Source: Selaginella tamariscina (Eukaryota; Streptophyta; Lycopodiopsida; Selaginellales; Selaginellaceae). From it: a stretch of DNA of 64,000 nucleotides. Position numbers and translations under genes: made by a program. Of the stretch, positions 8,490 through 53,060 are shown piece by piece. The notes under the pieces are model-generated. The model had not been told where the DNA came from, made no database searches, and saw only the letters and a program-made list of their open reading frames with translations. The DNA is taken from assembly GCA_003024785.1 (NCBI GenBank), contig PUQB01000742.1, forward strand, positions 1-64,000, read 5' to 3'. Within the stretch, counting starts at the first letter, position 1, and every line of letters starts with the position of its first letter.

Positions 8490-11400
8490 AACTCATCATG
8501 ATAAGAATAACAAATAGAGGCGTTGATAGTCAAAACTTTCTACAAGGTTACGTAGTCTTGATGTTGCATCAAAGAAACCAGACTTGCTCACTAACATGAT
8601 AAACTGGATTGTCTTTACGATACTAATTGGTAGTTGTCTTTTGATCCAAAAGATGTTGATCAAGTGTAGCTTGGATAGACTGGAGATGGTCAAGTTGATC
8701 TTTGGTAGACAGATTTATCGAACTCCCAGGCATCCATTGTAAATGTTGACCAATCAAGGCATAGATGGTTGACATACCAGTTGACGCATGTTTGGAATTG
8801 TTGTAGGAGACTTAGCTAAGGGCAGTAGTAGTAATTAATCATCTTGTTGGTAATTGATGAAGCACCATAAATACTATTTGAGGGTTTGGATAGTGCGTTC
8901 CAATTGACCATTAGTTTTTGAATGATAACCCGAAGATAATGACCTCTTGATCTTGAGTAGCTCAGGAAGTCATTGCTAAAACTTGACAATAAATGTAGAC
9001 CATGATTGCTAATAATGTTATCATGGTGGTAGGAAGTGAGCCATCTTAGTAATACGGTTCACATTGACAAGAATAGTGTTAAATTCTTGATTTGGCGGCA
9101 AACCAGTCACAAAGTCTATCAAGATGCAAGACCAAGGCATTATTGGAGCTGGAAGCGGTTGGAGGAGACCATACGAGTGATGATGAGGTTTTAGAGCGAG
9201 CATAGATGTCATAGGTACAAATAAACTCTTCCACCGACTGGCATAGTTGTGGCCACTAATAGTTACGACTGATTAATTCCATTGTTTTTGTAACGCCAAA
9301 GTGATTATGGAGAAGCAGATTGTTGGCTAATCGAAATAGATTGAAGTCAGGTTGTGAGATGGACAAAGTGTTACCTGCAAGGTGAGTCAAGATATCCTGA
9401 GCTAGTGGATCAGAGACAAGTTCAGAGCGGATAATGTCAAGAAGGTTGGAGTCGAAGGGTGCAACATGAACAACGAATGCTTGGAGGCATTTGGGACCAA
9501 GTACCACTTGCTTTTCATGGTCAAATTCGATGTCGCCAGCATAGATGCCAAATATGCTTGTCATGAAAGTGCGTCAGATTAAACTTGCTAAGTGCCATGT
9601 TAATACTTGATCTCAGAGTCGAACCGAGAGAAAATCTGATGGGTCCAACAAACTTGATGTCAATTCTAACTTGAGCCTGAGAAAAGTAAACTAAGTTTTG
9701 ATGATTAGTGAAGACGGTTACTTTGTGCGGGGAGCCTTCAAGAAACTTTTGCCACTCTTGAAAGTAATCCACAATAACTAGAAGTCCCTTGTGATAAATC
9801 TCATAATTGATCTCCCCAATTGTGAACTTGCACGAGTGGAATGCTACATGGTGTAGATCGCTGTCAGAGCTATACTGATAGAAACAAAGCTAGATGCATT
9901 TGTCTCCATCACAAAGGGTTTGACCAGGTTGAGGTGAAGCAAGATTGAAGCCAAGGTAAAAGCAAATTTAAGTGTGATAAACGTGTTCTTAGCCCCATAG
10001 ACCACTTGAATAAAACCTTTTCTTGGTGAGATGATTCAATGGAAGCACAATTTTGGGGAAGTCCTTAATGAAGTGTCGATAGCAATTGGCAAAGCTGAGG
10101 AAACACTGGATGTCTTGAGCTGACTTCGGCATTTTTCATTCAAGAACTTTGTGCACCTTGGCTGGGTTCATGGAGATCCCAGTGTGTGACATCACATATC
10201 CCAGAAACTTGACATGTTCTTAGTGAAACTGATAGTTCTCCAACTTGGTATAGAGATCATGCTGCCGAAGTCTCTCCAGAACCTAATAAACATGTTGTTG
10301 ATGTTCCTCCTATGTTTTTAAGAAAATAAGGATGTCGTCCAAGTAAATAATTATAAACTAGTTAAGAAAGTCGTGAAAGATGTCGTTGGCCATATGCTAT
10401 AAAATTGCAGGGGCATTAGTTAACCCAAAAGGCATCACCATATACTTAAAATGCCCATAGCATGTATGGAAAGCAATCTTTCATTCGTCACCAAGGTGAA
10501 TATGGAGTAGATTGTAGCACTTCGAAGGTCGATCTTCGTAAAGTAACGAGTCTTATGAAGACGCTCAAGAATCTTGGGGATAAGAGGTAGAAAATACCGA
10601 TTATGAATGGTGATCTTGTTCAACTCACGATAGTCGACCACTAATTAAAGAGAGCCATCCTTTTTCTTGATGACACTAGTTGGAGATTTGAAATGACGAA
10701 TGAAACTAGTAGCTAGGTTCTCATTGATGTATTCATGTAAAGCTTTAAGCTCGAGTAGAGAAAGACTATAGATCAGACCAAACAGAGGTGTCTTACCTTC
10801 AATAGTATCAATCAAACAATCATATAGATGATGTTCAAGAAGACAACTAGCTTGGACCTTGTTGAATACATCGTAAACTCGTGGTATGTAGACGACAAGG
10901 AACTAGGAGCAGATGAAGATGGAGTCACCATCATAGCAAAACTATGTCATGTTGAGTATGGCTAGCACAGATAAATTTTGCCAATGAAATAGTTGAGATA
11001 CGGATCAAGGATGTTGTCAGAGTCAAAGTTGAAGATGATGTTATTAGAGATGCAAGACATTGTCAGGCTAGAGTCGTGATTGAAGTTGAAGACAAAGATA
11101 AAGTCAGAGTCAAAGTCGGAGCCAAAGATAGACATGTAGAAGTGCTACCATGAACTAGAGGTGTCAAAATGCAACAAGGAGTTAGAGTTGAAGAGTATTG
11201 CCAAGAGTCAGATTTGTTGAGATATAGCCAAGAGTTAGAGATAAAATAGAAGCTAGAGTAGAAACAACCAGGTACAGTTGTCCAATCAATTTGTGGATTG
11301 AGGGTCTTAAACCAAGGAAGATCAAGAATAACAAGAGTGTCAGGAATTGAAATGATGTTGAAGGAGATCAAGCATAAGATATTATCAAAGATGACCATGA

Positions 11401-12880
11401 GAGGCACTGTTTCTTCAATATTGTCGGACATCATTGGTTTTCCATCAGCAACTATAAACTCAATTGAATCATAATGCAATCAAAGCTTTAGATTATGTTG
11501 TTGGATGAAGAAGCGGTCAATCAAGTTTTTAGTTGCACCACTATTAAATAGAGCTACTACATTAACTTGAATATCGTTAGATGTCGAAATAGTAATTAAA
11601 TGAAGAAAAGGGTTTGCTAGTGTTTGTTGTCAAGATCACAGGTAGAATTGTCATTGAGGAAAGAGATATTTGGAGCAGACTTGCAATGGTCCAATTGGAA
11701 TGTTCTTATTCAAACTAGACCTTTCGTTTTTGACTCAACTGAGGGACCATCCACCACTTTAACTTGAATTTATTGTCAATTTTGGCACTTAGCAATTCGG
11801 TGTTCATCCTTAAAATAATATAAACACAATTTTGCTTGATGATTGTCGCTTGGCTTGTGTCAATGATCCTTGTGGTCAAAGAACATCCACTTGCATCGAT
11901 TCGGCATCAGAAGATAAAGTAGCCAATGACTCTTACACTATTGGAGTTACAATACGAAATACTTGTTTTCTTGATGTCGCTCAAAAAGTGATTGTTGCAA
12001 CAAACTGCCTGATCAATAGACTTGTCCATAGAATTTGGGTTCTTGAGAGTGAGCAGGAGATCCTTGACATTGTTATGAAAACCTTCCCTAAATTGATCAC
12101 GAAGCAACGTCAATGTCACATGAAAGTAATAAAAAATCAGAAGCATATTTGAATGCTATGAGGGAACCTTACCGTAGTCATCAAAGCTTGGTTACTACCA
12201 TGCTTTCATGTTAAGATCGCTGAAGGTAGCTTCAAAGGCTGAAAAAACATATCCCATGATTTCAAAAGTGGTGAGTCCTTCTCAAGGTGCAAACCACTTC
12301 AAAGCTGCACTGGTAGGAGTGTGTACAAGACCCACTTGTGCTGTAGTCGTAAGGGTATAGTGCGGGTGTAAGCAAAAAACCTAATTCATGAAACCTCAAA
12401 ATTGTAACTTGAGCCATAAACTTGGTTGTAGGTTGACTTTTTGGTTTTGAAAAGTGTGATGATGATGACTATTGTTGTAGATCATGTGCAATCGTTAATT
12501 CTCAAGTTGTAACTACTGAAACTATTGTGCGAGGAGTTCTGCATTGATAAAAGACATGTTAAGGAACTTGAAAGTTCGAACCAAGGAATGGAAAGTATTG
12601 ATTCAAACTGTCAAGAACCAAGCTGAGAAGACATGAAACAAGCCTAGAGTACATAGATAAAAATAAGACAAGAGGCTTAGCTCTAAACTGTGTTGAATCG
12701 AAATACTTAACCTTGATCACTATAAGGGAAGCCAAATTTGGACTAAGCTAGTTTTAATGACCCTTATTCATATCCATACCTTATCTTGGACTTGGCTAAT
12801 TTTAATGATCTTTATCTATATCTTATCCTTATTCGTATTCATATCCTATTCATATTTGTATTTGTATCCATATCTATGTG
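8490..12880 (-). mobile_element. Decayed Tf1/sushi/Tcn1-like chromovirus, minus strand
   Basis: Read on -, the order is gag remnants (about 12300-11830), protease region (11479-11063, with VILDLPWFKTLNPQIDW), reverse transcriptase (about 10760-9970, [11 protein letters not shown] and FTKIDLRSA), RNase H (9772-9521, FQEWQKFLEGSPHKVTVF), integrase (about 9250-8700, YGLLQPLPAPIMPWSCILID and ITKMAHFLPP) and the integrase C-terminal module near 8500-8560 (FDYQRLY). All frames are broken many times. Residues match the complete element at 19101-25149 and the relic at 46200-48991, so all three belong to related lineages. No LTR pair can be assigned to it. Confidence 0.8.
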
Positions 12881-19045: not shown

Positions 19046-19100
19046 TGTTGAGCATTAGTGTCTCAAAAGAGAACCCATTGCTTCCTATCAACATAAGCCC

Positions 19101-19474
19101 TGTCACGACCTTGTGCAAAGGGCGAAACCTTTAGAACAAGAATGGAACCTTGAAAGGAGGAGATTATATTCAAGAAAGAAATGAATACAAAATGAAACAC
19201 AAGGCCGAAGACTGGTGTTGAATGATTCTGAGAAACCTGGAACTGGAACCCTGTTTATATATCTGAGGTCCTGAGGATTGTATGGTCCACAACTGGTCTG
19301 GAATGTGTGGTTCACACTGGTCTGGAATGTGCGTATGAATATACACCTTGCTGTTGATGGTGTAGTTTAGCATCTAGGATCATATGGACCAGTTGGTTAA
19401 CACATGTGTGTGTTAGTCAAAAGGTCTCGGGTTCAAGTCCTGTGAAAGGCAAAAAATGACCCATGATCCTTACA
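19101..19474 (-). repeat. 3' LTR of the 19-25 kb chromovirus
   Basis: TGTCACGACC at the left end and ATCCTTACA at the right. It is the partner of 24775-25149. It contains, on +, a tRNA-like A box at 19385-19396 and a B box GGTTCAAGTCC at 19430-19440. Confidence 0.93.
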
Positions 19475-19524: not shown

Positions 19525-20290
19525 ATTGATGGAACTCGGCAACAAGATTAGGAGCATGAACAAGATGAACAACAGGCTCCCAAGTGCGTTCGCCAGGTGG
19601 AAAACCAATCTCGGCAACAAGATTAGGAGCATGAACAAGATGAACAGTAGTGCGTTCGTCAGGTGGAAAACCGATGGAACTCGGCAATAAGATGAACAGC
19701 AGGCTCCCAAGTGCGTTTGCCAGGTGGAAAACCGATCTCGGCAACAAGATTAGGAGCATGAACAAGATGAACAGCAGTGCGTTCGTCAGGTGGAAAATCG
19801 ATCTCGGCAACAAGATTAGGAGCATGAACAAGATGAACAGCAGTGCGTTCGTCAGGTGGAAAACCGATGGAACTCGGCAATAAGATGAACAACAGGCTCG
19901 TCAGGTGGAAAACCGATGGAACTCGGCAACAAGATTAGGAGCATGAACAAGATGAACAGCAGGCTCCCAAGTGCGTTCGCCAGGTGGAAAACCGATCTCG
20001 GCAACAAGATTAGGAGCATGAACAAGATGAACAGCAGTGCGTTCGTCAGGTGGAAAACCGATCCAGTCCACGAAATAGTGAAGCTGATCTCGAACAAGTT
20101 TGGAGTCAAAATTGCAGCAACCTCGAACTCAGGTTCACCAGTCAAGAATTGCAGCAACCCGATCCAGTCCACGAAATAGTGAAGCTGATCTTGAACAAGT
20201 TTGGAGTCAAGAATTGCAGCAACCTCGAACTCAAGTTCACCAGTCAAGAATTGCAGCAACCTCGAACTCAGGTTCACCAGCAACTGTAAC
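19525..20290 (-). repeat. Chromodomain with tandemly expanded C-terminal module
   Basis: Read on -, the chromodomain starts EPEFEVAAILDSKLVQDQLH, then YFVDWIGFPP. The C-terminal module (FPPDERT, then optionally WEP, then VHLVHAPNLVAE) is repeated about eight times in DNA units of 66 or 75 bp, with copies at about 19583, 19650, 19711, 19778, 19844, 19894, 19970 and 20037. The longer units keep WEP, the shorter ones lack it. A natural-looking end (EFHRFST, then TGA at 19901-19903) follows the second module, so the outer copies probably lie in the 3' UTR or in other frames. The N-terminal half is itself present in three partial copies (near 20111, 20213, 20250). An in-frame TGA near 20310 separates the domain from the integrase. 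Confidence 0.85.
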
Positions 20291-20311: not shown

Positions 20312-22073
20312 TCAGCTAGGTTCAGAAGGAGCATGATAAGGCTCCAACAAAGAAACATGGAACACGGGATGGATCTGGATGATTGGCGGAAGCTCGAGAC
20401 GAAATGTCACATCAGAGAGTTTGTTGATGATGCAAAATGGCCCCAAGCGTTGATAGTCCAGCTTGTCACAGGGATGTGTGGTTGGCCAATGACGCCGGAG
20501 GAGCCACACTTGGTCACCAATTGTGAATGCTGGAGGAGAGAGAACGGGTCACAGACTGTGCCAATGATGCAGGAGCCACACTTGTCACCAATTGTGAATG
20601 CTGACGTCAGCTTGTTGTTGCAAATCCCGAGCGTTGAAGATGATGCTGCACTTCTTCATGGACCTGTCGGAGATGCTCAACACGATCATCGGCAGCAGTG
20701 GTGAGGCCAGGAACCACGGGCAAGCTGTAGGACCAGCGAGGATGAACACCAGAGAACGCGAAAAATGGCGACACACCTATGGATGAGTGTGCCGTGTTGT
20801 TGTACGCGAACTCGGCAGCAGGAAGGAGATCGACCCAATCATCTTGCAGATGAGAAATGAAACACCGGAGATATTGTTCCAGAGTCTGAATTGTGCGCTC
20901 CGATTGTCCATCTGTTTCAGGATGATGTGCAGTAGACAGCTTCCCGGTGATACGTAGCCGATCTAGGAATCTCCGCCAGAATGCCGAAGTGAACTGGGGA
21001 CCTCGATCAGTGACAAGTTCATCAGGAAGACCATGAAGGCGGAACACCTCCCGGTACACCAGATCTGCAGCATCAGGACCCGAACATGTCTTGTTGCAGG
21101 GAACAAAGTGCGCCATCTTAGAGAACCGATCAACAATGACTAGGACAGCATCAAACCCTCTAGAAGGCGGTAAATCCGTGAGGAAATCCATGGTGATGGA
21201 TGACCATGGCCGCTGAGCAATAGGAAGAGGCTGTAGTAGTCCAACCGGTCGATGACGAGGAAGCTTTGTACGCTGGCACGTGTCACAAGATCGCACAAAT
21301 CTCTCAACATACACGCGAAGCCGAGGCCACCAGAACACCCGTTGTACCAGCTCGATCGTCTTTCGAATGCCAAAATGTCCTGCAGCTGTGTTGTCATGGC
21401 AGTGTTGGACAGCTCGCAACCTCAGTTCTCCGTCCGGAACATAGATTTGGATGTGGTGGTACAGCAACCCATTATGAAGATGGAAAGCAGCATAATCTCG
21501 TAGTTGTGACCCTGAAGACAATGGCTGAACTCGTCGAACATGTGCAAGGACATCACGAGCAAACTCGTCTTGAGGGAGATTTTCTCGGATTAGATCCAAA
21601 AACGAAGTGTCAACTGGAGCAGAAGAACGGGAAAGCGCGTTTACCAACAACTGGTCGGAGCTCAGGATGACTTGTTCTTGTTGATCAAATCGGATTTCAC
21701 CTGGTACTGGAGCTAGGTAACTGCGACGAGATAAGGCATCTGCTTTGCCATTTAGACGACCGGGACGATGAATAATCTCGTATCGGAACCGGGACAAAGA
21801 CTGTGCCCATCGCGCCTGACGTCGATTGAGAACTCGTGCTGTTGCCCAGTACTGGAGGTTCTTGTGATCACAATACACCTTAACCACATGCGGGGAACCT
21901 TCAAGGAATCTGCGCCACTCCTCAAAGGCATCGACGATCGCCAGGCTCCTTGTTGTAGACATCGTAGTTGATCTCAGGTGCAGTGAACTTGCGGGAATGG
22001 AAAGCAATGGGATGGAGAAGATGATCTGGACCTTCCTGGGACAACACTCCACCAATGGCGAAGTCAGAGGCAT
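20312..22073 (-). CDS. Chromovirus pol: RNase H C-terminus and integrase
   Basis: The first part, 22073-20607, covers the end of RNase H ([20 protein letters not shown], then GKADALSRR) and the integrase: zinc-binding His/Cys region ending CDTCQRTK, catalytic core with [18 protein letters not shown] and GQSERTIQ (the DD-E triad is present). The GPY/F-like C-terminal module ([24 protein letters not shown]) continues in another frame at 20509-20312 after a break near 20610. Integrase inserts the cDNA; the GPY module and the following chromodomain would steer target choice. Confidence 0.9.
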
Positions 22074-23613
22074 CAGCTTCCACGAAATATGGCTTCGCAG
22101 GGTCAGGATGGATAAGAACAGGTGCCGAGGTGAACGCCTTCTTTAGGAACTCGAACGCCTCCTCAGCCTCAGAGGACCAGACAAATGGAACATCCTTGCC
22201 AGTCAACTTCGTCAATGGCAATGCAATCTTGGAGAAATCCCGAACGAAACGTCGATAGAAGTTCGCAAACCCGAGGAAACATCGAACATCACGAACATTT
22301 GATGGTCTCTCCCACTCCAATACAGTCCGGACTTTTGCAGGATCCATGTGAACACCTTCAGCTGAAATGATGTACCCCAGGAACTCGACAGACTGCTGAC
22401 TGAAAGAGCACTTCTCCAACTTGGCAAACAAGTGGTGCTTCCGGAGCCTCTCCAAGACTAACCGTACATGCCGTTCGTGTTCTTCTCGAGTCTTGGAAAA
22501 TATCAGGATGTCGTCTAGGTACATGATGACAAACAAATCCAAGAAGTCCCGGAAAATATCGTTAGCCATGTGCTGGAACACAGCAGGTGCATTTGTCAGG
22601 CCGAACGGCATTACTACGTACTCGAAATGTCCGTAGCGTGTACGGAAAGCTGTTTTCCACTCGTCCCCTTCTCGAATTCGGATGAGATTGTACGCTCCTC
22701 TTAAATCGATCTTTGTGAAGTACCGGGCACCAGAAAGACGTTCGAGCATGTCGGAGACGAGCGGGAGAGGATACTTGTTTGGAATGGTGACCTTATTCAG
22801 ATCTCGGTAGTCCACCACGAGCCGGAGACTTCCATCCTTCTTGGAAACAAAGAATACTGGAGCACCAGCCGGTGATCGCGAATGACGGATAAATCCGGTG
22901 ACAAGATTCTCCTCAATGTCTTCCAACTCTGTTGGTGAGAGACCGTAAATGGGACCGGAGGACGGCTGCTTACCCTCAACGAGATCGATAGGACAGTCGT
23001 ACTCACGGTGCGGTGGCAAGGCAGAAGCTTTCTTTTTGTCGAAGACGTCTGCGAAATCGGCATACTGCTTTGGTAAGGCAGGAGGAACAGAAACATCCTT
23101 AGCAGAGCAGGGATAGACTTTGATCGCGAACACGGATGCTGGGTCATGTCGGCTATCTTTCTTGAACTGCTTCAAGGTGATATGCGAGACTCGAAGTGGA
23201 GGAGGAACTGGAACAGGATCGGAATCAAAGAGTGTGGCTGGAGTTGAAACAGCTGGGAAACTGTTCATGAAACGTTCTCTCCAACCAGGATCCACCAACT
23301 CGATCCACGGCAAACCAAGGATAATCGTAGAGTCTGGAATAGAAACAACACTGAAGGAGATGTTGCACACAGCACCGCAAGCAACGACCTCAACGAACTC
23401 CGTGTCATTTATTACCGCTCCAGATTTGATATCTCGTCCATCAACGACCCGTACAGAACCAGGAGTCTTCAAAGGATGTAGACGGATCCCGTGCCTGACA
23501 GCAAAATTCTTGTCGATGAAATTTGCGTTCGCTCCGCTATCCACCAAAGCTTTACCAGAGAACTCCACCTCTGGTGTCTTCAGCTGCACCGGAACATGGA
23601 ACGGCTTGCACAC
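21922..23613 (-). CDS. Chromovirus pol: protease, reverse transcriptase, RNase H
   Basis: An uninterrupted reading frame of 563 codons. The aspartic protease has ALVDSGANANFID and IILGLPW. RT has VVDYRDLNKVTIP, the catalytic [18 protein letters not shown] and YLDDILIFS, then LGYIISAEG and CFLGFANFYRRF. RNase H begins [16 protein letters not shown]. The frame breaks inside RNase H at about 21940, and the next frame carries on from 22073, so the two overlap. The length of clean frame suggests recent activity. Confidence 0.93.
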   Translation of the reverse strand: MCKPFHVPVQLKTPEVEFSGKALVDSGANANFIDKNFAVRHGIRLHPLKTPGSVRVVDGRDIKSGAVINDTEFVEVVACGAVCNISFSVVSIPDSTIILGLPWIELVDPGWRERFMNSFPAVSTPATLFDSDPVPVPPPLRVSHITLKQFKKDSRHDPASVFAIKVYPCSAKDVSVPPALPKQYADFADVFDKKKASALPPHREYDCPIDLVEGKQPSSGPIYGLSPTELEDIEENLVTGFIRHSRSPAGAPVFFVSKKDGSLRLVVDYRDLNKVTIPNKYPLPLVSDMLERLSGARYFTKIDLRGAYNLIRIREGDEWKTAFRTRYGHFEYVVMPFGLTNAPAVFQHMANDIFRDFLDLFVIMYLDDILIFSKTREEHERHVRLVLERLRKHHLFAKLEKCSFSQQSVEFLGYIISAEGVHMDPAKVRTVLEWERPSNVRDVRCFLGFANFYRRFVRDFSKIALPLTKLTGKDVPFVWSSEAEEAFEFLKKAFTSAPVLIHPDPAKPYFVEADASDFAIGGVLSQEGPDHLLHPIAFHSRKFTAPEINYDVYNKEPGDRRCL

Positions 23614-23714: not shown

Positions 23715-24621
23715 CTATTCGGGCTGGATCTTCTCGTTTCCCGGCAGCACAGCAAGGGCCACTTCACGAGCTTGTTTTGGACGTCGATGACAATTCTCCA
23801 ACTTGTGGTACGGGTCCCCACAGTACAAACAAAGCTTGTACTGAATCCGCTTCTGACGTTCGGTTGGCAAAAGCTTGCCTCGGCGTGATCGCCCTAATTC
23901 CATCGGGGATGGTTCTACTGAGGAAGATGATGAATCAGCAGATGAGGGAACAGGGACTGCAGAAATGGAAGAAGACGGCACCAAGAAGAAAGAAGGATGC
24001 CGACGTTCTTGTTTCCGCTCGATCAACCGGTTGTCACAACGAATTGCCAACTCGATCATGCTGGTGAGGGTTTCCGGAACCGCAAAATTCAGCAACATGT
24101 CTTTGACCTCGTCCTGCAACCCCGACCGGAAAACCTCCTTGAGAGCACGATCTCCCCATGTGACATCACAAGCAAGAAGTTGAAACTTCGATGCGTACTC
24201 TGCTACCGACATACCCCCTTGGTGAAGCTGACGGAGTTTGGTGATGGCAGCACTCTCACGATCCACGTCACTGAACATCGCCGTGAACCGTTCCACAAAC
24301 TCGTCAAAATTCCCAAGGATCGGATCATTGTTCTCCAGCAAGGCTGAGAACCATGAAAGAGCAGAACCAGAAAGCAGCGACCCGATCAATCCAACCTTAA
24401 TGGGTTCTGTGCTGTAGCGCCTCGGCTGCATCACGATCCGCAGACGAAACTTGATTGAGAAAACCTCGGAACTTCGATCGGGTACCATCGAACTTTTCGG
24501 GCATGCTGATCTTCGGCTCTGGAGAATTCGCACGCTGTCGGAGCTGATCATTCTCCAGGTGTAGTTGTTTGAGCTGCTGCTGGAGGGCAGCAACTTGCTC
24601 ATGAAGAGCATGCTCGGACAT
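23715..24621 (-). CDS. Chromovirus gag
   Basis: Starts MSEHALHEQVAALQQQLKQL, a predicted coiled coil, and goes on to PEKFDGTRSKFRGFLNQV. A one-base length error in a T run near 24445 then shifts the frame to the main capsid part (LIGSLLSGSALSWFSALLE). The nucleocapsid holds a single zinc knuckle of CCHC type, CLYCGDPYHKLENC. The ATG at 24621 is preferred because it opens the coiled coil and has only 5' leader upstream. Confidence 0.88.
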
Positions 24622-24757: not shown

Positions 24758-24772
24758 CTCAGAATCATTCAA
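24758..24772 (-). promoter_or_regulatory. Putative self-priming site
   Basis: On - the 15 nt TTGAATGATTCTGAG begin 2 nt inside the 5' LTR. They are perfectly complementary to the LTR sense sequence at 24892-24906, which lies where the mRNA should start. The site does not begin with TGG as a tRNA primer site should. This matches the arrangement known from Tf1, where the 5' end of the mRNA folds back to prime reverse transcription. Confidence 0.7.
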
Positions 24773-24774
24773 AC

Positions 24775-25149
24775 TGTCACGACCTTGTGCAAAGGGCGAA
24801 ACCTTTAGAACAAGGGTGGAACCTTGAAAGGAGGAGATTGTATTCAAGAAAGAAATGAATACAAAATGAAACACAAGGCCGAAGACTGGTGTTGAATGAT
24901 TCTGAGAAACCTGGAACTGGAACCCTGTTTATATATCTGAGGTCCTGAGGATTGTATGGTCCACAACTGGTCTGGAATGTGTGGTCCACAACTGGTCTGG
25001 AACATGCGTATGAATATACGCCTTGCTGTTGATGGTGTAGTTCAGCATCCAGGATCATACGGACCAGTTGGTTAACACATGTGTGTGTTAGCCAAAAGGT
25101 CTCGGGTTCAAGTCCTGTGAAAGGCAAAAAATGACCCATGATCCTTACA
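24775..25149 (-). repeat. 5' LTR of the 19-25 kb chromovirus
   Basis: Partner of 19101-19474. In sense orientation a TATA box (TATATAAA, 24935-24928) is followed 31-32 nt later by TCTCAGAATC, a good start-site context. The A and B box pair lies on + at 25060-25071 and 25105-25115. Confidence 0.93.
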
Positions 25150-25154
25150 AGCCC

Positions 25155-25600
25155 TACTTATGTTATGTCATTAAGGCACACCCTTTATCATAATATTTAT
25201 TATGATCCTACTTCTTACTTTGGAAGTTGATTGTTGTGTAATTCATGTCAGACCTTTAGATATGGGAGAAACAAATAAATATTATCCTACTTCTTACTTT
25301 GGAAGTTGATTGTTGTGTAATTCATGTCAGACCTTTAGATATGGGGAGAAACAACCCCGCTTGGTGCACTTAAGTCTTTAGGGGTGGTTCAATCAGCTAT
25401 TGCAAAATACCTCAAGAAATTTTGTGTAAAGGTGAAACTTACCATCTAGAACCCTTCCTTCTTCAATAAACTAAAATCAAGATTCATGGGTTTGTTAGGT
25501 GAGTTTGATGTGTCAAATATGGTTAGGTACATCCCTATAAGGTTGCCCTAATACAACATTGTACATATATAGAGAGCACATATTATGTCTTACCTATAGT
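25155..25600 (-). mobile_element. LTR-A fragment with a 79-bp tandem duplication
   Basis: Similar to the left part of the solo LTR at 6543 (CTTCTTACTTTGGAAGTTGA, GTGCACTTAAGTC, CCATCTAGAACCCTTCC). 25207-25285 and 25286-25364 are near-identical tandem copies of 79 bp, a duplication not seen in the other family members here. Confidence 0.65.
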
Positions 25601-26089: not shown

Positions 26090-29000
26090 TAGAGCAAAGT
26101 AAATTAGAAGATGCAAGGAAGTGAGTGAATATAGTATGATTGGTTAAGATTTGATCATGATATTGGCAAGGTCTTTTGTAGGGTTTGTGAAGCTGACCAT
26201 AGTATAGAATCTAGTATGCTAGAGGGTTTGTGAATTTAAAAACCTCTTCATTCAAGGATCATGCTAGGAGTATCGCCCATAGACATTCTATTGCTAAGTT
26301 GAGGGGATCAGGTTCATTATATAGAGCCTACAAGAAAAACTAACAAAATCTGATTGATCAAATTTCAATAATGTTCAAAGCATCTTGCTTTATTGCAAAA
26401 GAAGATTTATCCTACAGTAAGTATCCTTCCTTGTTGGAGCTCATAAAGAAATTTAGTTGTGATATTTTAAGCATTTACAATAATGACAAGGCTTGCAAGG
26501 AATTTGTTAGCTGCATCAGTAGGCATTTGGAAGATCAAGATCAAAAACAACACTTGGTGGAGATATGAGTCCACTGGCATAGCATGCATTTAACATCTTA
26601 TCTATTATGTGAGTTTCTTAGGTGAAGCATATATTTTAGGGTTGATTTCACTTCAGACAGCAAATGCTCAGACATTGACAGAAGCTATCTTGAAGAAACT
26701 AGAAGAAGCTGACTTAGATCTGTTGAAGTTCATAGGTTTTGGAAGTGATGGGGCATCTGTCATGATAGGAGGAAGAACTCATGTTACTACAAGGCTTAAG
26801 AAGATCAATCCTTTCTTAACATCAGTTTATTGTGTAGCACACATGAGTAATTTGTGTGTAGGAGATGTTGCTAAAAGTAATCTTTGTAAGACAACATGAA
26901 GAAAATCGACAAGCTAGTGAATGCAATTGCCAACTTTTTTTGTACACAACAGCCAACATATATGTCATTTGAAAGAGTTACAAGAGGAATTTGGTGATTC
27001 CTACATAAGGTTGGAGAATATTCAGGGTACATTGACTTAGTAGGGATGGAGCTTTGTAACAACTTTGAGAGCTTTTTTAAAATAGGGAAGCCTCAACTTT
27101 TTAAAGAGTTACGTGATTTTTTTATTGTTTACATTTTACACTTTTTGGTAGATATTTGGGGATTCTCAGTCAGCTAAATCTAGCATTTCAAAAGGACATG
27201 GTAGATGTACCTTCAGTGAATGGTTTAGTAATGTCAAAGTTTTAACCCAAAGGGGCATAAGAGTCTAACTTAGATGTCCAGATAAGAAGTCCCTTAAAGT
27301 GACTACCCTTTGAACCTTAAAAGATAACTCAAGTAGACTTTAAGGATCCTACACCAGAAGACTTAAACATGCTTATGCCTTAGCCCCACTAAGGAGATGT
27401 GTCCCATATATTCCCCATGACAAAGCTAAGGCATTGCCACTTATCCTTTAAGAAATCCCCCTCATCTGGGAGTACAACCCTTTTAGGCAACAAGGGATAC
27501 CTGATCTACAATTAACCCCTAAGGGTTTGAGTGGCCAAGTCATACCTTAGACTTAGGGTTAATACTTAGTGAAGACATGAGTGTGTGTCATAAGCAAACA
27601 CAAGTATTGTACTAAGTAAACTCCCTAAGGTTAGGATAATCTTAAGTATGCGACCTTCCGAGTGCTTCATAAATGGGCTTTTCATAATAAGCTTAGGTTG
27701 TTCAACTCTTGGACCCCAAGGAGAAGACCCCCTCCTTAGTTGAATATGCTAATACACATTTAATTAGGAGACCCAATCTCCCTTGAGTAAATGCCCAAGA
27801 CTTAGCACCCTAATGTAAGCACTAGCATGCCTACTTGTTACCCCTTAGCATTGAGCCCATGAGACAACCCCAAAGGGTGTGCCTTGGGCGTTGTATGTAC
27901 CATGTGTCATCTAGCCTAGTGTCACATCTTTATGTGACATTATTTTTTTAATGTGAGTTATCATGCCATAACCCTTAAATTCAAGAGTTACAGTAGGTGC
28001 CATGAACATGGCTTTCAAATCCTAACTCTAGAACTTCTCTATGAACCCTCAGAAATTAGATAAAGAAAAACTTATTAATTAAGATCCCAAACCCACAGTT
28101 AGACAAGGACACGGATGTGCCCTACTTAGTTGTGAATGCTACTCTTAACTTGATATGGAGGAGGAGGTTAGAGACATGCCTTAACCTTTAACCCTTAGAA
28201 CTTCACATACATGGATTTGCCAAAGTTAAGGGTAAGTTATAAAAAGGTGGGACATATTGTTTGGAAATTGAGGTGGCACAACATATGATAATGACACAAG
28301 TTAAAGCTTGCATCGGTAGAAGAATAATAAGTTTAGTTATGAACTTAAGAACTCTTACTACATGTATTACTTAATATACGTTATAAAGCCTTCCCCTTTA
28401 TTTTCTTGTTTTGTAAAATGGACTAGCACAGAATCTCATTCTCAATAGGAATATACTTAGTGAGTTTAACCTAACAATCCATTGATCCCTAAACCCTAAC
28501 CCAAGGGGCTTAGGGCATGGGGTTAAGTTAACCCTAGGAGTGTTTCTACCATATTCGATGTCAAACTCACTGAAACTAACTCAATCAAAATAAGGATAAA
28601 AAAATTTCTATACGAAAGTGTTAACTTCACCCAAAGTTTCTTATAAATACATAATAACACCTAATCAAATCATTACTAGATATTTAAGTGCACTAAGCGA
28701 GCTTGTTTCTTTTACACCCAAGACTTATTAACTAGTTCAATAAGTAACAACGATCAACTTTAAAATAAAAGTAAAGGTCATAGTAAAAATTATGACAAGT
28801 AAGGTCAACTATCAAGGAAATCCAAATGGCATTTGTTGGAGGATTAATTTAATCTAAATATTAGACAAACAAATAGCAAAAGGATATCCAAATATTGCTA
28901 GATATCTTGAAATACTCCAAGGAGTTACAAAAAATAGTTTTACAAGAGTTTGAGATGCATAGAAGTTTAAATTCAAAAGATCTAAAAATTACAGTTCATT

Positions 29001-29399: not shown

Positions 29400-30045
29400 C
29401 TAAAAGAGGAAATGAATTATAGAAGAGGGCCGCTGAGGAACGCGGGGAATCTTGGAGAACAAGCTATCTGTTCTGAAGAAGTACATGTCGAAAGGTACTC
29501 TCTCTCCACACACACACAGGAGGTTTGATCATTTGATGACCTGATATATATTAATTAGATACATATACAGGAGGCTCTGAAGTGTTGCTGCGAGGATTAA
29601 GCAGTACCTTATCCATTTTGAAATAAATTAACCTTTTCATCATCTTTAAAATATTTTAAGTGTTTGCATAGTTTAAATTGTACTGTTTCACGCACATACA
29701 CTAGGCTAAATATATAAATGTTACCATAGATATAGCTAACCTTCTTTCTAAATTATTGACTTCAAAGATGGTAACTTGTCAAAGTACAAAGAGTTCCATA
29801 CACATAAACATGCGTAGGACGCGGCGTGTGTATAAAACACACATCCAAATCAAAATCTACTTTCACCCGAACTTCTTCAGCCTGCGACTAACACTTGGAA
29901 ATACATATCTTATCTTAGGCACACCAAACGTGACTTTTGACTTCGATAATAAATTGTTTTTGTTTTCTGATTAGTTAAAACAATTTTACATTAAAAAATT
30001 ATAAATTAATATATGACGTGTCCTCTGGAACACGCCGACGTCGCC
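29400..30045. other. Intergenic region before the GH16 gene
   Basis: No gene recognised. A GC-richer patch at 29425-29495 is open in one frame and ends in GGTACT, a possible stray exon, but it matches nothing known to me. Confidence 0.35.
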
Positions 30046-30048
30046 GAG

Positions 30049-30055
30049 TATAAAA
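30049..30055 (+). promoter_or_regulatory. TATA box of the GH16 gene
   Basis: TATAAAA, 112 nt before the ATG at 30167. With a start site about 30 nt downstream the 5' UTR would be ~85 nt and includes a CTCTCTTCTC tract. A second, inverted copy of this promoter lies at 31100-31190. Confidence 0.75.
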
Positions 30056-30166
30056 TGTGTGCATTTAGAAGCATTCCAAGCTTAGGCATTAGCTTAACTC
30101 TCTCTTCTCGAAGCTCAGTGCACATTTACACCACACAAGCGTGCGTGCTCACAACGTTGTTACAGG

Positions 30167-30813
30167 ATGTCTACAGTCAACTTCAGTGGATACACATGGA
30201 CAGTGGCGATCTCAGGGGCTTTCTGGGCCCGGGCCAAACAACTGGAGCAGCAACAATGTATGGGTCCGATACAAGCGGTAGGCTGCACCTGAAGCTTTCT
30301 AAGAGCGGCAACACGTGGTACTGTGCAGAGCTCACCTCCAATCAGAGCTTTGGGTACGGTAAGTACATATGGAACGTAGAAGGCCCTGTTGACAAGCTGG
30401 ACAAGAATGTGGTCCTCGGTCTGTTCAACTACAAGGACGGGGACGACGGACACCACGAGGTGGATATCGAGTTTGCCAGATGGGGAAACGCAGCCTGGGA
30501 CAACTACAATTACACTGTTTACCCTGCTTCTGGCACAGGCAGCGTTAGCAGCACGTACGAACTCGCGCTCAGTGGGACGTATACAACGCACACCTTCACA
30601 CGCAGCAGCACCAGTGTTTCTTTCAAGGGATACCATGGCTTTACTACCACCGACTCCAATTCCTTCTTCCCGTGGACGACGCCCAGTGGGATAACGTGAG
30701 TAAGCTCAACTTGCCTGTTCACATGAACCTGTGGCTCTACAATGGTCTCGCTCCTTTCTAATGGAGCTGAGGTTGAGATAATCATACACTCCTTTAACTA
30801 CGCGCCGGCCTAA
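30167..30813 (+). CDS. Bacterial-/fungal-style GH16 beta-glucanase-like protein, intronless
   Basis: Starts MSTVNFSGYTWTV and continues in the next frames with GPGPNNWSSNNVWV, SGRLHLKLSKSGNTWYCAEL, the catalytic motif HEVDIEFARWG (GH16 ExDxE core), then LPVHMNLWLYNGLAP and the C-terminal strand EVEIIIHSFNYAPA, then TAA. The overall pattern is that of GH16 enzymes of bacteria and fungi, not of plant XTH. No signal peptide is visible, unlike XTH, so either the protein is cytosolic or the start lies elsewhere. Frames change near 30215-30235, 30265, 30670 and 30756; most fit shortened homopolymers (G, C, C and T runs). Substrate unknown; beta-1,3- or 1,4-glucans would be usual for the family. Confidence 0.82.
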
Positions 30814-39660: not shown

Positions 39661-39701
39661 TGTTTTTGGTGCGGTGAGCGTGGAATGCTAATGTGCATTT
39701 T

Positions 39702-40124
39702 ATGAATGAGCCTGAGCGTCCTTTCTGGAGAAGGTTCTTTCAACTTTCAAGGTCTCTTCAAAATCAAATATTGAAGTGTTGTTTTGAGCATCCACATGGG
39801 TTTGCTTTAAATAACAAGTTGGTGGTCATTCAAGCGTGGGGATTTGAAGAATTCAAGTTTGGAATACAACTTGCAATTGCGAATGTGCTTTTGAGGAGGC
39901 GAGAGGTGAATCGAGCATGGATCAAGATTTGGCACCCATGTGATAGTGGTGATATCGATGAGGCACACCGTTTGTGTATGGATCTTCCATACATTGATCC
40001 TCACATCGCAGTCGTGACAATATCTCGATGGATTCATCCAAGTCTTTGGGAATCTTGTGGAGTGTGGAGTTTGGTGAAGCAAGAGTATTGCGCGCGTTGT
40101 GAGAGGTTCGGTTGTGCTTGTTAA
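39702..40124 (+). CDS. ORF1 of the Tat-like element, unknown function
   Basis: 140 codons from the ATG at 39702 (MNEPERPFWRRFFQLSRSLQ). No family was recognised. It has a Trp- and Arg-rich body and ends in a Cys cluster CARCERFGCAC that could bind zinc. Its stop overlaps the start of the next frame (TAATG at 40122-40126), so either the two frames are translationally linked or one frameshift has split a single ORF1-RNase H protein. An extra ORF before gag is known in Ogre elements of the Tat group, but similarity was not shown here. Confidence 0.6.
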   Translation: MNEPERPFWRRFFQLSRSLQNQILKCCFEHPHGFALNNKLVVIQAWGFEEFKFGIQLAIANVLLRRREVNRAWIKIWHPCDSGDIDEAHRLCMDLPYIDPHIAVVTISRWIHPSLWESCGVWSLVKQEYCARCERFGCAC

Positions 40125-40579
40125 TGTGGCAAGTCAACTTTGATGGAGCATACAAGCCAAAGAAGCAAGTTGCGAGTGTAGGGGTCGTGCTAACTGATCC
40201 AGTAGGGAAGCGAATCAAAATTTCTGAGCCAACTTCTAGTGCTAATTCTTGCAATCAAGCGGAGTATTCTGCATTGATTCGAGGATTGAAGGAGGCAAGG
40301 AAACAAGGAGCGAAAAACGTGGTTGCGATTGGTGACTCTAAGTTGGTGGTGAACCAAGTGCAAGGTCAGTGGAAAGTGAGAAAGCCTGAGTTGTTGGTGC
40401 TTTCTGAGCGTGTTCAAGATCTCAAAAGGGGATTCGACACTTTTGAGATAAAGCACGTTCCTCGAAGAGAGAATCTAGAGGCTGACGAGCTTGCACAGAG
40501 GGGGGCATTGCCTCGTCAAAGTGACGTCTCTTCATCTACTTGTAATCAGGTGAAACCTTTGCCATTTTTACACTTGTAA
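40124..40579 (+). CDS. Archaeal-type RNase H encoded upstream of gag
   Basis: 151 codons from ATG at 40124. Residues D7 (VNFDGAY), E47 (CNQAEYSALIRGL), D71 (AIGDSKLVVNQVQGQW) and D121 (HVPRRENLEADELAQ) make the complete DEDD active site. The HVPR..N.EAD ending is that of bacterial/archaeal RNase HI and of the extra aRNH domain of Tat elements. It would remove the RNA strand during cDNA synthesis. The frame ends 2 nt before the gag ATG. In the Tat arrangement I know, this domain sits after RT-RNase H and before integrase, so this position is unusual. Alternative: a captured host RVT_3-type gene. Confidence 0.85.
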   Translation: MWQVNFDGAYKPKKQVASVGVVLTDPVGKRIKISEPTSSANSCNQAEYSALIRGLKEARKQGAKNVVAIGDSKLVVNQVQGQWKVRKPELLVLSERVQDLKRGFDTFEIKHVPRRENLEADELAQRGALPRQSDVSSSTCNQVKPLPFLHL

Positions 40580-40581
40580 AG

Positions 40582-41726
40582 ATGGTGTCTATTCCAGTAT
40601 ATCATGGTCTGCAAAATGAGGATGCAGATCGGTATTTACGTTCATTTAAGCGAGCATGCATTTCGAATGGAGATAGAAGTTCTACCACTTGGGCAGAACT
40701 TCTACCATCCTTTTTGGAGGATGGAGCATTGAAGTGGTTTGAACGTCAAACTAGTGATGTTAAGGCTAGTTGGGAGAGGTTGAGTGAGGCTTTTCTAGGA
40801 AGTATGGAAAGCCAGAGACATTGGATGAGGTCATGAAGCAATTGGATCAATTGAGGCAAAGTGAAGAAGAGAGTGTCAAGGCATTCAGTGAGCGTGTGTT
40901 GGAACTCCAATGTAAGCTACGAAGTGGTTTGGGAGTGGAGGCCTCCGAAGGACAGGAGGATGCATCCAAGGAGTCCAAACCAGCTGTGGGGATAGATGCA
41001 TTGGTGTTCAACAAGTTTCTTACTGGATTGAAGCCGGTATTACGCCAGAAGGTAAAGAACAAAGAGCCTAGTAACTTGCAGGAAGCTGTGAAGATTGCTA
41101 TGAAAAAGGAGGCACTTCTCATGGATCCTGATGAAGCCTCAATCTCAACGGTAGCACCACAACCAAGGTTGGCACCAATTCTACAAACACCCCAAGTTGT
41201 GATTCCTGCAACCGTTCCAGTCAAATCATCTGAGTTGGAGAGTAGTATTGCCAAATTAACTTCAGATCTCAACGAACTCAAGTTGCATTTGCTTCAAGCA
41301 AAGCCAACAGGACCAAAACCTCCAAGGCCACCTAGGGATCGAGCTAATGTCACTTGTTACATTTGTAAACAACAAGGTCACTATGCCACTGAATGTCAAC
41401 AACCACGACCACAGGTGACATGTTTTACATGTAAACAGGTGGGACACTATGCAAATGAGTGTCCTCAGAAACCTCAATCAACTCCTGCACCACAACAGAG
41501 GGACCAACCTAGTGTTCATTTGGTGGAGTTAACAACCGAGCAAGGTGACTTGGATCTCTTAGGTCTTAAGAGAGCCAGAGGGGAGCAACAAGTGGAGCAA
41601 CCTGAACAAGTGGAGACACGTGCAAGAAGAAAAGGAAGGAAGGTACCAAGCCACGACGTAAGGTTGGTATACAGGATATGGGGATTGGCAAGGGGCAGAA
41701 GGAATATTCAATTGTCGAGGATCTAG
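40582..41726 (+). CDS. Gag of the Tat-like element
   Basis: Starts MVSIPVYHGLQNEDADRYLR; the capsid part contains FLEDGALKWFERQ, then shifts frame at about 40802 (AAA apparently read as AA) into KPETLDEVMKQLDQLRQ. The nucleocapsid has two CCHC zinc knuckles, CYICKQQGHYATEC and CFTCKQVGHYANEC. The last residues overlap the protease frame (41678), where a frame change would be needed to make Gag-Pro. Confidence 0.88.
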
Positions 41727-42235
41727 GAGATACTCGTGCCAACATTACAGTTGCACAATTATTGTCAAAATGCCCAAGCTTGAGGAGAGAGCTTCGACAA
41801 GGGATTAGTACTCGTGCAAAGAAGGTACGTCCTAGTGGTGAGGATGAGGTGATGCGAAATGTACAAGTGATAACAAGAGAATCCAATACGAATGCCGTGG
41901 CACCAATTGTGGATGTGGTAGTAGATGGAATGCGTGTGCAACGTGTTTTAGTAGATGGTGGTGCAGAGATCAATGTCATGAGTAGCTGGTTGATGGAGAA
42001 ACTTGGTCTCAAGTGCAACCAACCTTCAAATTGGAGGATTAGGGTGGCAGATGATCGACGTGTCAAGCCAGTTGGAATGATTATTGACTTGCCGATCACA
42101 GTGCACGGGATAACTACCTCTATAGATGTGCATGTCATGCAACTACGACGGGATGCACATGGTTATCCTATGATCTTGGGTCGACCTTGGCTTTATAAGG
42201 TTGATGCTAAGAATTATTGGAAAAAGGGGAGATGA
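41678..42235 (+). CDS. Protease of the Tat-like element
   Basis: Aspartic protease with active-site VLVDGGAEINVMSSW and the flap/C-terminal YPMILGRPWLYKVDA. The DGG in place of the usual DSG/DTG occurs in other plant Ty3/gypsy proteases. The frame ends in the linker to RT. Confidence 0.82.
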   Translation: MGIGKGQKEYSIVEDLGDTRANITVAQLLSKCPSLRRELRQGISTRAKKVRPSGEDEVMRNVQVITRESNTNAVAPIVDVVVDGMRVQRVLVDGGAEINVMSSWLMEKLGLKCNQPSNWRIRVADDRRVKPVGMIIDLPITVHGITTSIDVHVMQLRRDAHGYPMILGRPWLYKVDAKNYWKKGR

Positions 42236-44425
42236 CTATTGGTCATAAGTCAAGACGAGTGACAATAGCCATCAAGGAGAACACAACAAAGGTTGTAGAT
42301 GAGTCATCTTCCAGTGAGGAATATGATTCTAGCAGTAATAGTGAGGTGACAACCTCAGATTCTGAGAGTGAGCAAGAGGAGAAGGAATTGTATGCCCTCA
42401 AGGCGATTCCTAAGGTTGCTACGCGTGTGGAGCCTCACGATAGACATGAGGTCTATGATCAACAACTCACCCAGGAGCAGGAGGCTCAAGGAGGGGTAGT
42501 AGGGGTTGTTGAAAAGGGGCAGGAAGCAAGTAGTGGCAACAAGTTTGAGGCAAAGGAAGTGGAGCGACGAGCTCTTTTGGAGAAGATGCTTAGTTCAAGT
42601 TTGACTCCTGAGGAGAAGGAGCAATACATGAGCATGCTATTGAAGTTCCCCAAGTTGTTTGCGACATCATATGAGGAGCTTCGTCAAGTAGATATTGTGC
42701 AACATGAGATCCCACTTAAACCAGGTATGAAGGGAGTTGCACAAAAGGCTTATAGGATGGGTCCTTTGAAACAGAGCATAGTTTATGAGGAGCTCATGAA
42801 GCTACAGCGTTCGGATTTCATTTTTAAGGTGGAAACGTCAGATTGGGTTTCTCCTGTGGTGGTAGCCCCAAAGAAAAATGGTAAGTGGCGAGTTTGTGTC
42901 AACTTCAAACGATTAAATGATGGCACACATCGAGATCATCACCCCATTCCTTTCATGGATGAGATACTGATGAAGTGACAGGGCATGAGATGTACACATT
43001 TTGTGATGGGTACTCTGGGTATTTCCAAGTCAGGATTCGAGAAGAGGACCAGTGAAGACTACCTTCACCACACCATGGGGAACCTTTGCGTATAGGGTGA
43101 TGCCGTTTGGACTCACAAATGCTCCAGCAACGTTTCAACGATTGATGAACAAGGTGTTTGAACCATATCTTGGTTCATTCATTAGGGTTTACCTCGATGA
43201 CTTTTGCATCTATAGCGATAGGATGAGCCACTTGGAGAAGGTACAACTAGCATTCCAAAGGATGGATGATGCAAAAGGATGCTTGAACCCGGAAAAATGT
43301 CAGATTGGTAGTACTAAGGGCACCTTAGTAGGACATGTGATCTCAAAGGATGGCATTGAGCCAAGTCAAGACAAGGTGGACAAGCTACTCATGTTGCCAA
43401 CTCCGACTTGTGTCAAGGAGGTACGAAAGTTTGTAGGGTTGGCAGGGTACTATCGTAGATTTGTGGAGGGATTTGCAGAGATGGCATATCCATTGAACCA
43501 GCTACTTCGTAAGGGAGTTGCATTTCAATGGACTTCTTCATGCCAAGCATCATTTGAGAGGCTTAAGATCGCACTAAGTTCACATCCGATTTTGGTGGCA
43601 CCTAAATGGGAGGAGTTATTTTATGTCAATCTCAGCGTTGGAGAAGTTTCAATCACTGTGATCCTGATGCAGAAGGGGAGAAGCGGATACTTGTTTCCCA
43701 TTTATTATGCAGGAAGGCAATTACAAGGGCCAGAGCTCAACTACCCATTGTTGGAGAAGCAAGCAGCAGCAATCATATATGCAGTGGAGAAGTTCAAGCA
43801 TTACTTGTGGGGGCGCCACTTTGTTTTCCTCATCAACAATGCAACACTTAAGTACATTGCCAATAAGCCTGGGCTCACAGGGAAGTTTTCTAGGTGGATC
43901 ACGACCTTGGCTGAGTATGATTTTGAGTTTCAACATGAGAAGAGCACAAGAGCGGGTTTAGCAGAAATGTTGGACCAAGGTGACATTGAGAAGTTCCATT
44001 ATCTCTTGGAAGTTTGTGCTCTTTCACCCGACATGGAGGATTATCAAGAAGTCTACAATTTCTTGATGGATGGGAAGTTTCCAGAAGGATGTACAACAAC
44101 CCAGAAGAAGACGATCATGCGACAATCTCGACCTTATATGGTAATGGGTGAGTTACTTTATAGGATAGGGCGAGATGGTGTGCTTCGACGAGCGGTGGGT
44201 CGTCAGGAGAGAAAACAGATCATGGAGCAATGCCATGAAGGATTTTGCGGTGGACACTTCTCACACGACTACACTTCCAAGAAGATAGTCAATGCAGGAT
44301 ATTATTGGCCGACCCTCTTCAAGGATGTTAAGGAGTGGTGTCGGACTTGCCAGGTTTGTCAGACTTTTGGAAGAAGAGTGTTACAAGGGACCTTTGCATC
44401 CTATTTTACCAACAGGTCCATTTGA
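42217..44425 (+). CDS. RT, degenerate RNase H and integrase N-terminus of the Tat-like element
   Basis: 42217-42978 contains an acidic linker (SSSSEEYDSSSNSE) and the RT start (VSPVVVAPKKNGKWRVCVNF). A frame break at about 42975-43052 follows; the conserved CDGYSGYFQV lies in it. 43052-44425 continues with [25 protein letters not shown] (catalytic YLDD) and FVGLAGYYRRFV. The RNase H that follows keeps the fold pattern but not the catalytic residues: FYVNLSV where D is expected, LEKQAAA for E, FLINNATL for D, RAGLAEML for D. The integrase zinc module has HEGFCGGHF and CRTCQVCQ. A frame change at about 44370 leads to the core. Confidence 0.9.
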
Positions 44426-45284
44426 GAAGTGGGGAATAGACTTTGTTGGTCCCTTGCCAGTGGCTTCTTCACAAAAGAGATACATTATTGTGGGTACTGA
44501 CTATCTAACGAGGTGGGTGGAAGCAGTCTCTGTTCGAGCTTGTACCAAGGAGGTCGCAACAAATTTCATCATCCAGAACATTGTCACCAGGTTTGGGTGC
44601 CCATTAGAGATAGTAACAGATCAGGGTTCTCATTTCTGCAATGAAGTGGTGGAGCTTCTTCTTTCTCAATTGTCCATCACACGGCGACAATCAACAAGTT
44701 ATTACCCTCAAGCTAATGGACTGGTGGAACGAACGAATGGAGTGTTGTGCAATATATTAGCTAAGCTTGCGGTGGATCATAAGAAGGATTGGGACAAGTG
44801 GTTACCAGCAGCACTTTGGGCTTTCAGGACAACACACAAAGTTGCTACCAGGTACACACCATTTCAATTAGTTTATGGTATAGAAGCAATACTCCCAATT
44901 GAGCTGGAGATACCAAGCTTGCGTCTAGCATTGAAGCATGGGCTTGGAGATGGTGAGGACTTGCAAGCAAGGTTGGTTCAGTTGGAGAGCATGGATGAAT
45001 CACGAAGACAAGCCTTGCAACTTGTGGAAGCAATGCAGCAGAAGTGGAAGGCCAAATTCGATAAAAGATTCGAGAACGACCACTCAAGGTGGGTGATTTA
45101 GTGATGCGATATGATAGTCGATTGGATAAGACCTTCTCAAAGAAGTTCTTACCAAGATGGGATGGACCTTTCATCATTGTGGAGGTTTATAAGAATGGGT
45201 CATATCTTTTGCAAACTTGGATGGAGAACAGCATGGCACACGGGTTAATGGTTACAGGTTGAAGCGCTTTCATGTTCGACAGTA
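44370..45284 (+). CDS. Integrase core and C-terminus of the Tat-like element
   Basis: The frame open from 44292 covers GIDFVGPLPV, the first catalytic Asp in VGTDYLTRWVEA, the second in VTDQGSHF, and the Glu in ANGLVERTNG; the DD-E triad is complete. After a frame change at ~45090 the C-terminal GPY-like module follows (PRWDGPFIIVEVYKNGSYLL), ending with a stop at about 45282. No chromodomain was found. Confidence 0.87.
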
Positions 45285-52077: not shown

Positions 52078-53060
52078 TGTTCAGAGTTTTTACCTGGTGC
52101 CACAAAGGCGGCTTGCCAGGTGCCAACCTGGAATCCCCTCTCTTGAAAACCCCACAAAACCTGGTAAAGTAACCTGTATTAGGAACCCAAGCCTTAGGAA
52201 GTCAAACCCTAGTTGACTAAGTCCTCGAACGAGACTCACCTTGTGAATCAGGATACACGGACTAGCCGAGCTTTAGGTGTCGTTCCTAGCTTGGCGTGGT
52301 TGAGGCGGCCGGAGCAAGGCCCAACCACTAGTTTTGCAAAACGTGAACTCGGGCAATGCCTTTGAGCTTGCAAGCAGGTTTTCGGACCAAGGAATCTGAC
52401 TAACTCCTTGGAAGTGACGTGCCCCTATCTCAAAGGCAAGATCCTGCCAACGATAAGGATAATCTAACCCTAGGGTGGGTTGTACTCCTGTCGTGTGGAG
52501 TTTGGCCGGCACAACGGAGGGTTGCACCTTGATGACACAAGCTTAGCTTGCACCGGTAGGAGGTTAACGAGATCTTCTTTTGAACCCAGGAAGCCTCACT
52601 ACATATACTCTACCTTATTTATGTGATGGACCGCCCCCCCCCCCTGTTTTACCTAAGTGAGTAAGTGGGGCTGGCACGGAAATGCCATCCCTTAGAGAAA
52701 ATGGTTGTCCTAACCTAATCCTAAACCTAACCCCTAGGGGGGGGGTTTAGGACGTGGGGTTAGGGAAACCCTAGGGTTAGGTCAACCCTAGGGTGTCCCT
52801 AACCCTTATTTTGATAAGCTATAATTTGCAAAGAACCCTAACCTAGAACGTCAAAACGGGGGAGAGTTTCTAGAAGGTAAGTTCTAGCTTTGCCTAGAGT
52901 TTCCTGCAAATACCTAATGACACCCGGCCGGACCATCACTAGATACCCAAGTGCACTAAACAGGCCTGTTTCCTACTACATCTAGGGTTCGTCACACAAC
53001 TCGGTAAGTAACAACAGTCAAACCCCAAAGTAAAGGGTCGTCATAGTAAAAACTATGACA
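52078..53060 (-). repeat. 3' LTR of the nested chromovirus
   Basis: TGTTCAGAGTTTTTACCTGG to AACTATGACA. A poly-C run is at 52634-52645; telomere-like CCTAACCC/GGGTTAGG words at 52715-52810. Confidence 0.93.

Follow-up and report, generated by a model that had tools for sequence, protein, structure and literature searches.

The 64,000-nt stretch of Selaginella tamariscina DNA analysed here, referred to below as the window, carries a chromodomain Ty3/gypsy element of the Tf1/sushi–Tcn1 kind that appears to use its own mRNA's 5′ end as the primer for reverse transcription. Judging from the sequence, we put the probability of this reading at roughly 0.9. Self-priming by the element's own mRNA had been proposed in a preliminary description of this DNA, and it is now strongly supported by co-variation of primer and primer binding site across contigs of other origin and across two element families of the same genome.

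The element lies on the reverse strand at 25149–19101 and is 6049 bp long. Its 5′ LTR (24775–25149, 375 nt, TG..CA) and 3′ LTR (19101–19474, 374 nt) differ in the alignment by 11 mismatches, all of them transitions, and one gap, and they are flanked by a 5-bp target site duplication, GGGCT, with the upstream copy at 25150–25154 and the downstream copy at 19096–19100. A T-rich stretch lies between the 5′ LTR and the gag ORF (23715–24611, 298 aa, matching Retrotrans_gag and Ty3_capsid). An ORF of 563 aa (21922–23613) encodes the protease, the reverse transcriptase (RT) and the start of RNase H, and one of 488 aa (20607–22073) encodes the end of RNase H and the integrase; all of these ORFs are on the reverse strand. 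The RT motifs named in the preliminary description are present. Because the RNase H–integrase ORF is separate from the RT ORF, the window copy must be regarded as broken. The chromodomain sits after the integrase, although it is duplicated and broken in this copy: its region (19528–20128, reverse strand) has tandemly duplicated tails, and the piece 19904–20128 matched the Pfam Chromo profile with 34.7 bits against a cut-off of 25.1. The repeats coding for the chromodomain tail, at 19528–20062 on the reverse strand, have spacings of 127, 66 and 194 nt. A 66-nt duplication with a spacing of 79 nt was also seen immediately upstream of the 5′ LTR, at 25201–25345.

The 15-nt string TTGAATGATTCTGAG is found at 24772–24758 on the reverse strand, 2 nt beyond the end of the 5′ LTR (GTGACA, then GT, then TTG). 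It had been placed 2 nt inside the LTR before and is in fact outside it. Its exact complement in the LTR sense strand, at 24906–24892, was borne out and recurs in the 3′ LTR at 19232–19218; no further exact copy of this 15-nt complement was found in the whole 64-kb window. The LTR copy is located downstream of the TATA box TATATAAA (24928–24935, reverse strand) as described, but not at the offset of 31–32 nt given for it, since the 15-mer starts 29 nt past the first T of the box and the conserved 12-mer within it, by subtraction, 32 nt past. A 15-nt match in a 375-nt LTR has a chance expectation of about 3.5e-7 by arithmetic. When up to 3 mismatches were allowed, the window gave 7 matches against 3.95 expected, and 7 was reached in 8 of 100 shuffles; therefore, only exact window matches are informative.

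The genome searched comprised 300.7 Mb in 1391 contigs, with the window corresponding to C1107:1-64000. It contained 26 matches to the chlorophyll a/b-binding profile PF00504, which point to a photosynthetic eukaryote and probably a non-seed land plant; one of 14 control genomes, a cyanobacterium, matched as well. Exact copies of the 15-mer numbered 292 + 295 genome-wide, compared with 0 + 0 for the reversed-pattern control. Sixty short stretches were taken around the first listed places; the leader is covered by 34 of the aligned rows, and 28 of these carry the exact 15-nt copy in the LTR. Among the 28, the site opens with TTGAATGATTCT in 21, followed by varying strings and then by the flank GTAGTGACAAG, and the exact 12-nt site was missing in 7. 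GAG junctions are over-represented in this sample because the stretches were picked for an exact 15-mer in either place. The pairing of LTR and site thus stands, but not its length of 15 nt: the strings past the twelfth nucleotide vary in other copies, and therefore the conserved match is 12 nt. A primer of 15 nt was dropped because its last 3 nt differ between copies. The putative self-primer is AGAATCATTCAA (24892–24903), which would be nucleotides 1–12 of the mRNA, and the core of the primer binding site is its exact complement, TTGAATGATTCT (24761–24772), 2 nt past the LTR, both on the reverse strand. Transcription probably begins at A24903, 32 nt past the first T of TATATAAA. The core is followed by a hypervariable junction (24758–24760, reverse strand), which is GAG in the window copy.

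Mutated primers or sites were seen in L067/L166, L113, L167, L168, L170, L175 and L220, with two primer substitutions in L167; L166 and L167, whose outer flanks are 96% identical, are perhaps one duplicated locus. Eleven stretches with relatives of 83–96% RT identity (L165–L175) were scanned strictly, and a match of 10–14 nt was found in 5 of them, while no match of at least 9 nt was found in the other 6. Alignment of these 6 revealed substitutions in four and no leader in L171 and L172. Six further stretches gave a match of 13 nt in 4 and one mismatch in L220. L219 reads like another element's LTR.

A second family in the same genome, family 2, has an RT 77% identical to that of the window's family, family 1. 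Its primer, (C)AGTTACTATCAA, and its site, TTGATAGTAACT(G), are changed at 5 of 12 positions, and the changes are compensated. The first nine copies all match over 12–13 nt and all have sites starting with TTG. The exact site was present in 48 of 49 family 2 copies, 45 of which carried the exact primer in the same stretch. In the four family 2 stretches that gave a match in a further scan, the 3′ end of the primer lies 43 nt past a CATAAA.

A scan of GTDB contigs with the RT alignment yielded 57 loci (L001–L057), chromovirus-like elements in prokaryote bins and genomes that are probably eukaryotic contamination and served as a source of relatives. An 11-nt scan, in which a TATA upstream and a CA exactly 2 nt before the site were required, was passed by 8 of 58 sequences, namely the window and 7 of the 57 contigs: L002, L004, L007, L008, L030 and L038 from one bin and L003 from another. 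Across 40 shuffles the same scan was passed by a mean of 0.05 and at most 1, and the reversed order gave 0. A 9-nt scan added L011 and L057, which is near the shuffle level (mean 0.375, maximum 2), and found one locus in reversed order. In all 8 elements the site is located 2 nt after CA, and the primer ends with CAA, 42–44 nt past the first T of the TATA match. L004, L007, L008 and L030 are mutually 68–72% identical over the aligned parts, and L004 and L038 are 87% identical; because of this kinship, five primer types and not eight count as distinct evidence. With 5 distinct primers, 88 of 88 primer:site positions are Watson–Crick pairs, compared with a permuted mean of 59.4, and 3 of 5000 permutations reach this value. 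A single compensated pair distinguishes L007 from L008. The leader is visible in seven of the tree rows nearest the window (window, L002, L003, L004, L006, L007 and L008), and six of them have the full match; L006 has only a 7-nt match, found by eye, at its 5′ end, and the leader is missing in L001 and L005. Among the viral contigs, 81 stretches matched a pattern, and none of them was a relative. A Trichormus bin of run ERR2144891 is the source of the loci L001, L002, L004–L008, L030, L035 and L038. Trichormus is the Azolla symbiont; these contigs may be Azolla DNA, and the run may belong to the Azolla study PMC5901025. Co-variation of LTR start and primer site, which had been named as a check on self-priming, was found in contigs of two other assemblies and in two families of the genome.

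These results also bear on a tRNA-derived primer. The statement that the site does not begin with TGG was confirmed, the site starting with TTG in all 8 elements compared, and because of this no tRNA CCA end can pair with it. Half-tRNA primers are predicted in plant Ty1/copia lineages, according to the available text of Neumann et al. 2019 (PMC6317226), and a half-tRNA, or a fragment from inside a cellular tRNA, could in principle serve here too, with the LTR match being a coincidence or a secondary structure. We consider this extremely improbable: besides the sites without a TGG start, each family would need a different tRNA piece, yet each site is an exact match to its own LTR, at the same place.

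Folding from A24903 pairs the primer with its site and gives the leader a predicted energy of −56 kcal/mol (z −7.0). The primer:site pairs are in the minimum free energy structures of all 8 elements, with 11 of 12 pairs in L002. An inner stem is predicted beside the primer duplex, pairing about 24886–24871 with about 24789–24776 (arms assigned by eye) and thus bounding the region 24776–24886 on the reverse strand. It was paired in 49 of 54 cells against a permuted mean of 44.2, and 14 of 2000 permutations reach this, a weak statistic because the offsets were the best of those tried. The Tf1 leader is a three-duplex structure in the available text of PMC10085805; our folds show two of the three duplexes, and crossing pairs cannot appear in such folds. 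A leader as strongly structured as this one, inner stem included, would also be expected if the pairing were a conserved stem with a role in packaging, translation or RT docking in an element that uses another primer. However, the stem begins exactly where a primer site should lie, 2 nt from the LTR, and where the transcript is expected to start. In family 1, moreover, copies whose flanks carry no substitutions differ at the edge of the stem. A plain stem predicts none of these features, and we regard this explanation as very unlikely.

A different hairpin of 12–13 bp, formed by the U3 end and the primer (z −4.3 to −7.3) and with compensated changes, was found in L003, L004, L007, L008, L030, L038 and the 3′ end of L006. 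It was missing in the window element, in L002 and at the 5′ end of L006, nine rows besides the window having been examined. As a guess, this hairpin, which in genomic RNA would form only at the 3′ end, could mask the second copy of the primer.

To describe the junction, copies were searched by their exact flanks and not by the junction itself, which gave 122 + 122 copies and 0 + 0 in the control. The first 100 listed of these 244 copies had 16 junction strings of 0–3 nt (GAG 22, GG 19, AG 16, G 13, CAG 6, and others), and 61 of these 100 family 1 junctions were more than plain copies of the LTR sequence preceding A24903. The junction had the highest diversity of 318 leader and LTR sites assessed in the same way on the sampled copies, with 2.86 bits compared with a median of 0.345. 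Across 26 near-full copies, 18 of 71 gap events fell at 3 of 261 columns at the junction edge, the next site having 4. Among 32 stretches there were 14 pairs without flank substitutions (gaps uncounted), one of which was the same locus twice. The junction differs in 10 of the 13 distinct family 1 pairs, which are not independent because pairs share copies. Copies with an equal junction were not closer to each other than other copies (859 of 2000 permutations). In family 2, one junction was found in 39 of 48 copies, and its 30 flank-identical pairs all agree. The idea of a ragged junction as a general feature is weakened by these mostly constant junctions, and so far the junction footprint holds for family 1 only.

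For family 1 we give even odds to the reading that nearly every transposition remakes the outer edge of the primer site from the mRNA 5′ end. Starts would be ragged, bases derived from the cap or added without a template would be included, and each copy would record the 5′ end of the transcript that primed it. In family 2, speculatively, transcription beginning sharply at the preceding C, with one base from the cap, would yield the common GC junction. Slippage during replication, or mutation of the usual kind, could produce 0–3 nt at the junction as well, and would leave self-priming untouched. The small junction variation in family 2 and the richness of the junction strings in G and A speak for it, but slippage does not readily explain why the family 1 junction tops 318 sites exactly at the edge of the 12-nt match, or why it differs between copies without flank substitutions. 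Slippage is therefore possible but doubtful. A prior report of a ragged junction was not found in a literature search that was barely aimed at this subject, and a genomic footprint of self-priming is possibly new.

Self-priming would proceed as follows. Transcription would start at or within about 3 nt of A24903, and the first 12 nt would fold back onto the primer site at 24772–24761, beside the inner stem, in which R/U5 pairs with the end of the LTR. The RNase H of the RT would cut after 24892, between CAA and CACCAG, and the freed primer would be extended through GT into U5 and R. The plus strand would later copy the primer, and each new copy would in this way receive a primer site made afresh from the RNA 5′ end; such copying would account for the co-variation of primer with site as well as for the ragged junction. 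What the sequences show directly is the complementarity, the co-variation, the geometry, the predicted fold and, in family 1, the variable junction; the start site, the cleavage and the use of the fragment as primer, in cis or in trans, are deduced.

The RT tree was built from 86 rows less 12 dropped. The window element fell into a 26-row set (96/83), beside Absidia (27 rows, 94/95), and a wider 53-row set (99/94) takes in amphibian, Anolis, Ustilago and rumen-bin rows. The tree was rooted on the window's other chromovirus, which lies outside the 53-row set, as do Tanacetum and Closterium. No named Tf1, sushi or Tcn1 reference was among the rows, and assignment of the window element to the Tcn1 clade is tentative. 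Likeness to the Tf1/sushi group is seen in a primer site that can pair with the predicted start of the mRNA, in the predicted leader duplexes and in the chromodomain. The Tf1 primer is 11 nt long, compared with 12 nt here; the host belongs to another kingdom, and the mechanism is demonstrated in Tf1 and deduced here. The Tf1 relatives Tf2, Tj1, Tosmo and Tcry likewise have a primer site that complements the 5′ end of the mRNA, according to the available text of PMC4600332 and PMC10085805.

The preliminary description held self-priming to be undescribed in land plants. This was not correct, and the idea is not new, because Neumann et al. 2019 had predicted self-priming for the majority of Tcn1-clade chromoviruses of mosses and club-mosses, which cluster with Tf1/Sushi (PMC6317226, available text). 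To that prediction for plant chromoviruses, the window element adds evidence from co-variation, fold and junction. The same text predicts self-priming in plants for the TAR lineage (Houba, Osr-1), but this belongs to another superfamily, Ty1/copia. SM-Tcn1 of Selaginella moellendorffii (5704 bp, 440-bp LTRs, 5-bp duplication, gag of 323 aa, T-rich stretch between LTR and gag) resembles the window element, which is 6049 bp long, in the 5-bp duplication and the T-rich stretch; Novikova et al. 2010 (PMC2864245, available text) looked at this relative and found no evidence of self-priming, which speaks against the present reading. That text also reports no Tcn1 clones obtained by PCR from the ferns and horsetails tested.

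The window contains other mobile elements. A decayed relative occupies 9132–12730 on the reverse strand, with RT matches at 9132–10670. Its primer site, TTGAATCAATACTT, runs from 12606, 2 nt after TTGACA, and faces the LTR sense string AAGTATT(tc)GATTCAA, followed by CACAG, at 12708–12692, with a 2-nt interruption; this pairing was found by eye, as the ungapped look-up did not list it. A candidate site at 14069 was discarded, having no LTR partner. A third relative of this element type is present in pieces at 46585–47622. A second chromovirus spans 52100–59310 on the reverse strand, with gag at 57972–57346, RT at 55993–55316 and LTR-like repeats at 52127–53036 and 58412–59307. In contrast to the self-priming element, it has TGGTATCGGAGC at 58360–58349, presumably a tRNA-Met-like primer site with 1 mismatch. 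A Ty3/gypsy element at 40112–45101 (forward strand) has a separate RNase H-like (RVT_3) ORF upstream of a zinc-knuckle ORF, and the listed matches of its integrase are metagenomic or labelled PITA, which we take to be Pinus taeda. A 229-aa ORF at 30010–30699 (forward strand) has its best database matches among GH16 glycoside hydrolases of bacteria (Chitinophaga, with 68% identity across 70% of the query) and no Pfam match at 0.1; it is a horizontal gene, a gene piece or a contaminant. The ORF pieces at 26594–26899 and 39693–40124 had no Pfam matches above the cut-off, and neither a tRNA scan nor an Rfam search of the window gave a match.

Self-priming is demonstrated in fission yeast and only predicted in plants in the literature excerpts examined. 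If the Trichormus-bin contigs are Azolla DNA, this element type would extend to ferns, unlike the PCR result of Novikova et al. Junction variability, if confirmed, would allow primer length and transcript start to be read from assemblies alone, and if the family 1 reading is true, the genome sequence by itself would document self-priming, and where transcription starts, in vivo in a plant. With two abundant families, one of them with many near-identical copies and long open frames, self-priming becomes directly testable in a plant.
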